From: Verrucomicrobiia bacterium
Lineage (GTDB): Bacteria; Verrucomicrobiota; Verrucomicrobiia; Verrucomicrobiales; Akkermansiaceae
Assembly (NCBI GenBank): GCA_947462875.1
Contig: CANHQJ010000006.1
Location: forward strand, 1-64,000
Reading direction: 5' to 3'
Length of the DNA stretch: 64,000 bases
The notes beneath the pieces are model-generated. The model was not told the DNA's origin, made no database searches, and saw only the letters and a list, made by a program, of their open reading frames with translations. The stretch's first letter is position 1. Each line of letters starts with the position of its first letter. Both the position numbers and the translations under genes were made by a program. Positions 1 to 52,566 of this stretch are shown one piece after another.

Positions 1-99
1 ATCAGCGCGGACGGCGCTTGAGTTTGAGCTGGGCCATCGATTTGGCGATGAGGGCCTGCAGGTGAGCCACTTCCTCGGCATCGACGCTGTGGTCGATAG

Positions 100-168
100 G
101 GAGAAGGGGTTTGCAACCCCTTTCACAAGCTCAGTGCCTTGAAAAAGGGGGTGCAAACCCCTTCTCCT
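100..168. repeat. REPIN-like inverted pair of palindromes, copy 1
   Basis: The left half carries GAGAAGGGGTTTGCAACCCC (101-120) and the right half (about 147-168) is its near reverse complement, ending CCCCTTCTCC. Each half contains its own small palindrome (GGGG..CCCC) and the two halves are inverted to each other, as in REP doublets. It lies just downstream of atpC and could act as a bidirectional stem-loop. Confidence 0.75.
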
Positions 169-288
169 TATAGGCCATGGCGATCTACGATCAGCGCGGA
201 CGGCGCTTGAGTTTGAGCTGGGCCATCGATTTGGCGATGAGGGCCTGCAGGTGAGCCACTTCCTCGGCATCGACGCTGTGGTCGATAG

Positions 289-357
289 GGAGAAGGGGTT
301 TGCAACCCCTTTCACAAGCCCAGTGCCTTGAAAAAGGGGTTGCAAACCCCTTCTCCT
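289..357. repeat. REPIN-like inverted pair of palindromes, copy 2
   Basis: Same element as at 100-168, shifted by exactly 189 bp with a few substitutions in the loop and right arm. It sits between the atpC stop codon and the next atpC-end copy, so on the minus strand it is the first strong hairpin after the ATP synthase operon and a plausible transcript end or mRNA-stabilising structure. Confidence 0.75.
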
Positions 358-379
358 TATGGGCCATGGCGATCTACGA

Positions 380-790
380 TCAGCGCGGACGGCGCTTGAG
401 TTTGAGCTGGGCCATCGATTTGGCGATGAGGGCTTGCAGGTGGGCCACTTCCTCGGCATCGACGCTGTGATCCATGCTGAGAAGTTGTTTCTCGGCGCGC
501 AGCATCGCTTCTTCCGCCATCGTCTCATCGATCTGGGCATCGCCCAAGGCCATGTCGGTGAGGATGTTCACTTTCTCTTGCGTGACCTCGGCAAAGCCGC
601 TGCCAATCGCGAGAGAGGTGATCGTTCCATCCTTTTCATAGCGCAGCTCGCCGGGAGCCAAGGCCGTGACCAGGGCTCCGTGAGCAGGCAAAATGCCCAA
701 CTCTCCATCGGCACCGGGCAGATAGACGTTCGCAACGGTGTCCGAAAAGACTTTTTTCTCCGGAGTAACGATTTCTAGGTGAAGAGGCAT
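380..790 (-). CDS. atpC: ATP synthase F1 subunit epsilon
   Basis: This 136-residue protein is the epsilon subunit of the F1 central stalk, which links gamma to the c-ring and can inhibit ATP hydrolysis. It starts MPLHLEIVTPEKKVFSD and has the usual beta-sandwich signature (LPGADGELGILPAHGALVTAL, split here by position: about residues 24-45), followed by a helical C-terminal part. It is the last gene of the atp operon, 48 bp after atpD. Its last ~35 codons are copied twice downstream in the 189-bp tandem array. The native C-terminus is basic (KLKRRPR). The identification rests on family pattern and operon position. Confidence 0.96.
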   Translation of the reverse strand: MPLHLEIVTPEKKVFSDTVANVYLPGADGELGILPAHGALVTALAPGELRYEKDGTITSLAIGSGFAEVTQEKVNILTDMALGDAQIDETMAEEAMLRAEKQLLSMDHSVDAEEVAHLQALIAKSMAQLKLKRRPR

Positions 791-838
791 TATGACGAAA
801 AGCTGAAATTTTGAAAAGCTGAAACGCTGAAATTTGGA

Positions 839-33109: not shown

Positions 33110-33172
33110 GGAGAAGGGGTTTGAAACCCCTTTTTCTTTATGGATTAAGGGATTTTAAATCCCTACTCCTTA
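33110..33172. repeat. REPIN-like inverted pair of palindromes, copy 3
   Basis: The left half GGAGAAGGGGTTTGAAACCCC is the same element seen near atpC; the right half (about 33145-33172) is the inverted partner TAAGGGATTTTAAATCCCTA. It overlaps the 3' end of the methyltransferase gene: the stop codon of that gene (33163-33165) is part of the element. Confidence 0.75.
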
Positions 33173-51317: not shown

Positions 51318-51733
51318 TGAAAGTTACTCCCGCCATGTCCCGACCCGCGCGCGGCTACCTGCTTCTGGAGGTGGTGCTGGCGATGGGGATTTTTGCGCTG
51401 GCGGCGACCGGTTTTACGATCGCCTTGCAGAAAGCGGCGGATGCCTCGGACATGGCCGCACGTGAAATGCAGGTGACGCGCATGTTGCAAAGCTCGCTCG
51501 ATGCCGCGATTTCGATCCCCGTGTTGGAAGAGGGCGAGGCTTCCGAAAAATTCGAGGAGCGCGGGATGGAAATCGTGACGAAGTATGAAAAAATGGAGGA
51601 GATGGAAAACCAGGACGGGCAACTGCTGCAAGAGATGTGGCGCATCACGGTGACGGCCTACTTTCTCCAAGGAAACACCGAACTCAGCCGCACGGCCGTG
51701 ACCTGGCGCTACGGACGACTATATCAACCATGA
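51317..51733 (+). CDS. gspI: Type II secretion minor pseudopilin, GspI-like
   Basis: A 138-residue minor pseudopilin. The cleavage site is ARG|YLLLEVVLAMGIFALA, with Tyr instead of Phe at +1 but Glu at +5. The C-terminal domain is small and acidic in the middle (KYEKMEEMENQDGQ). The next gene begins in the overlapping ATGA at its stop. GspI helps initiate the pseudopilus tip with J and K. Confidence 0.85.
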   Translation: MKVTPAMSRPARGYLLLEVVLAMGIFALAATGFTIALQKAADASDMAAREMQVTRMLQSSLDAAISIPVLEEGEASEKFEERGMEIVTKYEKMEEMENQDGQLLQEMWRITVTAYFLQGNTELSRTAVTWRYGRLYQP

Positions 51734-52566
51734 ACATTTCCCGCAACAAACCCAGATCACAGAAAGGCTTCACGTTGATCGAAGTCGTGATCGCGCTTGG
51801 TTTGATGGCGGCTCTGATCATTTTGTGCGCGCGCCTCGCCACGGCGAACATCCAGTTGGCGAATGGCATCAACAAGCAGCAATCGGAAAATACCCTGCGC
51901 GAGAGCTTTTTCGACATGATGAAAATGCAGCTTACCTCGCTGCCGGGCAATACCCGCATGGAGCTGATCTACACCAAGGGCATGCAGCCGTATGAATACA
52001 CCTTGGTCTTGCAGAACGTGCCGATGGCCTTCACCTGGGGCGGCGTGGAGCGCATCGCCAAGGCGGTGGAAATCGCCGGGGTCAAACGCCGCGACGGCTT
52101 TATCAACGTGGTCATGCGTTACTACGAAAACCCGATTCTGTCCGATACGGAAAATATCGCGGATGCGCGCAAGGAAGAGCCGTTTGCGGAAGTGATTCTG
52201 ATGGAAGACCTGCGGTTCTTCGAGTGGCGTGCGCTGGATGGCAGGTCCATGGAGTGGCAGCTCGACTGGGATTTGCAAGGCCGCCTGCCGTTGCAGCTGG
52301 AGCTGGTGACGGCCCAGGGGGCGTATGGCGATGAGATGAAACAAATTTTCTGGATCGTGCCGAAAGTCAGCCCGAACACGGTTATTCGCGGCACCGGGCA
52401 GAATCAACAACAAGGCGGCCAAGGTGGTGGCCAGGGCGGACAGGGTGGTGGGTCAGTCACGATCCCCGGTGGCAACATCGGGGGAGGCGGGCAGCCGCCC
52501 GGTGGTGGCGGAGGCGGCGGACGTGGGGGGAACAATGGCGGCGGAGGAGGCCGGGGTGGTCGATGA
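51730..52566 (+). CDS. gspJ: Type II secretion minor pseudopilin, GspJ-like, with Gly-rich tail
   Basis: A 278-residue protein with leader QKG|FTLIEVVIALGLMAAL (Glu at +5), then a beta-rich domain with LFYTKGMQPYEYTL-type strands. From about residue 224 to the end the sequence is a Gly/Gln/Asn-rich tail (GQGGQGGGSVTIPGGNIGGG), 50-plus residues, unusual for GspJ. ATGA overlaps with both neighbours show tight coupling. Confidence 0.85.
   Translation: MNISRNKPRSQKGFTLIEVVIALGLMAALIILCARLATANIQLANGINKQQSENTLRESFFDMMKMQLTSLPGNTRMELIYTKGMQPYEYTLVLQNVPMAFTWGGVERIAKAVEIAGVKRRDGFINVVMRYYENPILSDTENIADARKEEPFAEVILMEDLRFFEWRALDGRSMEWQLDWDLQGRLPLQLELVTAQGAYGDEMKQIFWIVPKVSPNTVIRGTGQNQQQGGQGGGQGGQGGGSVTIPGGNIGGGGQPPGGGGGGGRGGNNGGGGGRGGR

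Follow-up and report, generated by a model that had tools for sequence, protein, structure and literature searches.

A REPIN-containing tandem array at the 3' end of atpC

At the start of a 64,000-nt stretch of DNA from a Verrucomicrobiia bacterium of the family Akkermansiaceae (GenBank assembly GCA_947462875.1, contig CANHQJ010000006.1, positions 1-64,000; hereinafter the window), the 3' end of atpC, the gene for the ATP synthase epsilon chain, is repeated in tandem together with a palindrome. From its sequence, we take this palindrome to be a REPIN (a hairpin-forming doublet of repetitive extragenic palindromic sequences, REPs) of a family linked to a REP-associated tyrosine transposase (RAYT), its mobility being only putative. 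We read the array, with a probability of roughly 0.8, as a local tandem duplication of the atpC tail, its stop codon, a spacer and the REPIN, produced by slippage or illegitimate recombination at the hexamer CTTCTC.

Window positions 1-469 form a tandem repeat with a period of 189 nt (2.5 copies, 98% match), the units of which, read along atpC, run from the end of the gene with its stop codon through a 23-nt spacer to a 68-nt palindrome; units 1 and 2 are identical but for 3 of the 189 positions. The initial annotation had described a copied atpC tail joined to a palindromic piece at a 189-bp period: the period stands, as does the recurrence of the atpC stop codon in both extra tails (Table 1), but the palindrome is shorter than the estimated ~82 nt and comes with the spacer. 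Likewise, copies of the tail with its stop codon are present, but neither is identical to the gene's own tail, of which they comprise about the last 90-105 bp. Positions 191-295 (105 nt) differ from it by seven mismatches, five of which fall within the 9 nt adjoining the junction (281-289), and both extra tails share two synonymous differences from atpC (GCC/GCT and CAA/CAG). The AtpC protein matches the Pfam families ATP-synt_DE_N (91.4 bits, over the cut-off) and ATP-synt_DE (20.5 bits, under the cut-off of 24.6). With Rfam at the gathering threshold, the window yielded nothing but two tRNAs, and a megablast search of the E. coli collection gave no match.

Position 1 is the start of its contig (the window is C6:1-64000 of the genome, which we call G000), and the window hence gives a partial view of the array. 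The last 142 nt of another contig of this 39-contig draft, C9 (143,953 nt), are identical to window positions 1-142, and in the smallest C9-C6 join the order is flank, P0, tail A, P1, tail B, P2 and atpC, with stop codons at 0, 189 and 378 nt. P0, P1 and P2 each carry distinct variants, and therefore at least three palindromes exist; the array holds at minimum these three and two extra atpC tails, and the real number may be higher. The conjecture that copies continue upstream of position 1 was thus partly right: reading for them on C9 yielded a third palindrome (P0) and then the unique far flank, although more copies could be collapsed at the break.

The three palindromes are 94-97% alike mutually and at most 79% like nine other REPINs compared, and therefore point to local duplication rather than separate insertions. 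In the nearest relative, G004 (AtpC 96% at the protein level), atpC is accompanied by a single REP and a similar terminator stem, the neighbour is collinear (78.7% over 2355 nt), and there are neither tail copies nor an array. Of 57 genomes searched, 55 gave a match, and G000 was the only one in which further matches covered just the atpC C-terminus; the tail is repeated downstream in none of 120 fetched atpC loci (these overlap, several being the same place under two identifiers, and five have less than 250 nt downstream). The named atpC matches, considering the best 80 of 206, belong mostly to metagenome-assembled genomes filed as Akkermansia, Akkermansiaceae or Verrucomicrobiaceae, by which the host is probably a member of the Akkermansiaceae; the names of those records also suggest a lake bacterium. 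By the comparisons of palindromes and loci, the array is best described as a local, lineage-specific duplication. We found no support for the tail copies having come in as an allele from a relative: in 260 family genomes (62 with a match), what they match best, the array itself aside, is the atpC of the host (96%), followed by that of G004 (93%).

Table 1. Features of the atpC array and its flank (window positions unless a contig is named).
Feature	Position	Strand	Basis
Contig edge; array runs on into contig C9	1..1	.	
Tail copy A, atpC end with stop 4-2; same copy at the C9 end	2..99	-	
REPIN copy P1	100..167	.	
Tail copy B, atpC end with stop 193-191; 281-288 an odd junction patch	191..288	-	
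REPIN copy P2, two inverted 23-nt REPs	289..356	.	repeat, fold and sequence comparison
atpC gene for the ATP synthase epsilon chain, with its own 3' end (stop 382-380)	380..790	-	open reading frame and Pfam
CTTCTC within atpC, short match to the REPIN edge 290-295	479..484	-	
REPIN copy P0, joined to unique flank	C9:143722-143789		
Terminator-like site	C9:143687-143714	atpC-sense	
Convergent open reading frame, 1362 aa, YDG domains	ends at C9:143610		

A REPIN family and its candidate RAYT

Each half of the palindrome is a 23-nt REP with a GGAG foot, an 8-bp stem and a 3-nt loop (AAGGGGTT TGC AACCCCTT; in a variant the fourth stem pair is A/T), and the two inverted REPs fold into a single hairpin, the structure of a REPIN. 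Related copies are dispersed through G000: allowing at most two mismatches, we found 45 REP matches (26 forward and 19 reverse; 0 with a reversed-pattern control). Merging those within 1 kb of one another, and counting the start of C6 and the end of C9 as a single place, leaves 28 loci. REP matches are present in six of the ten genomes of the genus. All three array copies, and most of the matches listed, have the foot GGAG, which the search pattern itself favours, instead of the GTAG or GTGG of classical GTAG REPs. At atpC the REPIN is repeated in tandem with flanking sequence, as in an ordered cluster. The REPIN-like character initially ascribed to the palindrome is thereby borne out in its structure and in the tie of its family to a RAYT gene. 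A second REPIN of the same family stands in the window at 33110-33169, as a single copy with unduplicated flanks, after a T-rich terminator-like hairpin.

The RAYT gene in question codes for a Y1-type transposase (contig C7:94985-95596) and lies between REPs at 94895-94984 and 95571-95626. Its product matches Pfam Y1_Tnp over the cut-off; its best NCBIfam match is REP_Tyr_transpos (REP-associated tyrosine transposase), at 75.7 bits under the cut-off of 80, and its MPNHVHVLF stretch is presumably the HUH motif. Matches of at least 60% identity occur in G000, G002, G006 and G007, with REPs adjoining the gene in each. REP matches number 45, 26, 22 and 19 in these four genomes and 10, 5, 0, 0, 0 and 0 in the other six, though three genomes break the pattern and speak against a strict REP-RAYT link: G004 has 5 REPs and no RAYT match, G003 has 10 REPs and only a 35% match, and the RAYT gene of G006 holds two stops. 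With these observations, a REPIN/RAYT family is on record for a genus of Akkermansiaceae-like bacteria, as is a REPIN cluster at atpC that is specific to one lineage and has incorporated an ATP synthase gene's 3' end. Elsewhere in G000 (C15, around 51646-51990) a further Y1_Tnp gene is accompanied by local repeats of its own, in part spaced 72-73 nt, and is perhaps a second RAYT with another REP type.

The joint and the origin of the duplication

CTTCTC stands at the edge of the REPIN and again inside atpC, that is, at both edges of the joint, and slipped replication or illegitimate recombination mediated by this hexamer would be the simplest and most likely mechanism. The process would have started from one REPIN between atpC and the convergent gene; a segment comprising the last ~100 bp of atpC, the stop codon, the 23-nt spacer and the REPIN would then have been duplicated in tandem at least twice, the joint arising by either route at CTTCTC, presumably with help from the hairpin, and a later unit being added through unequal exchange. 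The two synonymous changes common to both extra tails are therefore older than the second duplication or have been homogenised. The initial annotation had likewise proposed a recombination or slippage product with the palindrome as its joint, and the local duplication with a palindrome at the joint agrees with this. Some points weigh against our interpretation. The joint is not clean, in that five of the nine adjoining bases are unlike atpC, which simple slippage does not predict; and G004 has a single REP and no full REPIN, such that the pre-duplication state is not seen exactly. As a source of the odd junction bases we tried a snap-back patch from the mirrored left flank and found it unsupported: three of the five changed bases fit the mirror, for which hand arithmetic gives ~0.2 by chance.

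The hexamer would also serve a RAYT-driven capture, in which the transposase cuts at two places, a CT next to the REPIN and the CTTCTC (GAGAAG) in atpC that resembles a REP foot, and the tail and REPIN re-insert beside the REPIN as one single-stranded unit. The boundary on the atpC side coincides with six bases of the REP edge, the genome has an apparently intact RAYT gene, and TnpAREP enzymes are described (PMC8266576) as acting on single-stranded REPs, which they cut and join at a CT on the 5' or the 3' side of the hairpin. We nonetheless consider this route improbable: slippage predicts the same six bases, the atpC tail is found in G000 at the array locus only, and two other gene-end duplications near REPs (of accA and of a lactate/malate dehydrogenase gene) do not, on inspection, end at a REP-foot-like site. 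It is to the same degree doubtful that the RAYT of the genus can mobilise a REPIN along with an adjacent gene end holding a REP-foot-like CTTCTC and so generate arrays with host coding sequence, in a REPIN version of one-ended gene capture; were this the case, REPINs would be movers of host sequence.

RNA structure, transcript ends and the contig break

Folded as RNA, P2 and its flanks reach -58.7 kcal/mol (z -7.9), and none of 200 shuffles is as stable. The idea that the copies form a strong RNA structure ending the ATP synthase transcript is supported as regards the hairpin and less so as regards termination: the scan for terminators in window positions 1-800 found none at the full hairpin and one weak match inside P1 (161-148), with 0.6 expected; the array hairpins are without a T-run. 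The scanned stretch of the C9 flank has two sites against 0.9 expected, and the terminator-like site there, whose stem is 478 nt from the real atpC stop in the smallest join, is likely a terminator past the array. REP hairpins protect mRNA 3' ends in enterobacteria, and with such stable hairpins directly after atpC one might suppose that several were kept by selection for stabilising or ending the atp operon mRNA; however, the full hairpin has no terminator-like site, such a site is already present further on, and the syntenic G004 has no array, all of which makes a selected regulatory array unlikely. The duplication-based reading would leave the array as mostly a by-product that, at most, possibly stabilises the 3' end of the atp mRNA.

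Least likely of all is that an assembler multiplied or misjoined one unit, for although the array sits at a contig break of a draft, with 142 bases common to C9 and C6, the variants of P0, P1 and P2 differ, neither extra tail is identical to that of atpC itself, and P0 joins a unique flank collinear with G004. The repeat is real. Contigs break at such arrays, so that copy numbers taken from draft genomes are lower bounds.

Published counterparts

Shyamala and colleagues reportedly described, in 1990, enterobacterial tandem duplications with a REP sequence at the joint, which were large and lay between two distant REPs. The atpC array is also tandem with a REP at the joint, but one of its ends is a six-base match inside a gene.

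In Pseudomonas fluorescens SBW25, ordered REPIN clusters provide a closer counterpart (Bertels and Rainey, 2011; PMC3116915). As presented in the cluster descriptions of that work, these resemble our array in having units of flank, REPIN and short flank and a RAYT in the genome, and differ from it in REP sequence; further, what flanks the REPINs at atpC is coding sequence, a gene's 3' end including the stop codon, and the array does not adjoin the RAYT. Similarly, most large REP clusters are stated to be reiterated in tandem with flanking DNA, and the verrucomicrobial O. terrae is named as rich in GTAG REPs (Di Nocera and colleagues, 2013; PMC3733652); the atpC array shares this tandem arrangement with flanking DNA, but its foot is GGAG and not GTAG. 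The REP of Stenotrophomonas maltophilia, as characterised in the relevant part of its description (PMC8266576), is like ours in its 23-nt length, four-base foot, 8-bp perfect stem, 3-nt loop and cognate Y1-type transposase TnpAREP; its foot and stem sequences are unlike, and the family at atpC is known here from sequence alone. Going by these accounts, the array belongs to a published kind, that of tandem REPIN clusters including flanking DNA (PMC3116915, PMC3733652), its only special point being a cluster flank formed by an ATP synthase gene's end. In a literature search on REPIN and verrucomicrobia, PMC3733652 alone dealt with REPs, and one on atpC with tandem repeat, palindromic and intergenic found nothing related.

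Other repeats near REPs

We examined REPs as hot spots of local duplication, scoring direct repeats of at least 60 nt and at least 85% identity within 3 kb (in flanks of ~0.5-1.5 kb, less where a contig ended), without establishing the idea: in G000, 2 of 28 REP loci have such a repeat while 463 kb of background has 0 (p=0.023), but leaving out the atpC array, which prompted the test, raises p to 0.15; among relatives, 68 fetched and partly overlapping stretches gave 1, and 400 kb gave 2 for comparison.

Several individual cases came to light. The last 329 bp of accA (Pfam ACCA) with the stop codon are present twice in G000 (C5:223297-223625 and 224625-224953; L232 4298-4626 and 5626-5954), the copies being 99.1% identical and 1328 nt apart, with the second ending 8 nt before a REP. 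Between them lie a 228-aa open frame with no Pfam match and what we take, by motif, to be a candidate attC-like end. On contig C37 of G007, the end of a lactate/malate dehydrogenase gene is repeated with its downstream hairpin and a REP half (92%, 1.7 kb away; L270 1518-1687 and 3230-3400), and a Fic-domain gene stands between the two copies. Contig C33 of G006 has two REPIN-containing stretches of ~144 nt, 83% alike and 3.4 kb apart (L234 1582-1722 and 4964-5106), which fall below the hot-spot thresholds. Finally, at 2309-2420 of the window, between atpD and the next open frame, there is a GATCA-rich 33-nt inverted repeat, its arms 85% complementary and 46 nt apart.
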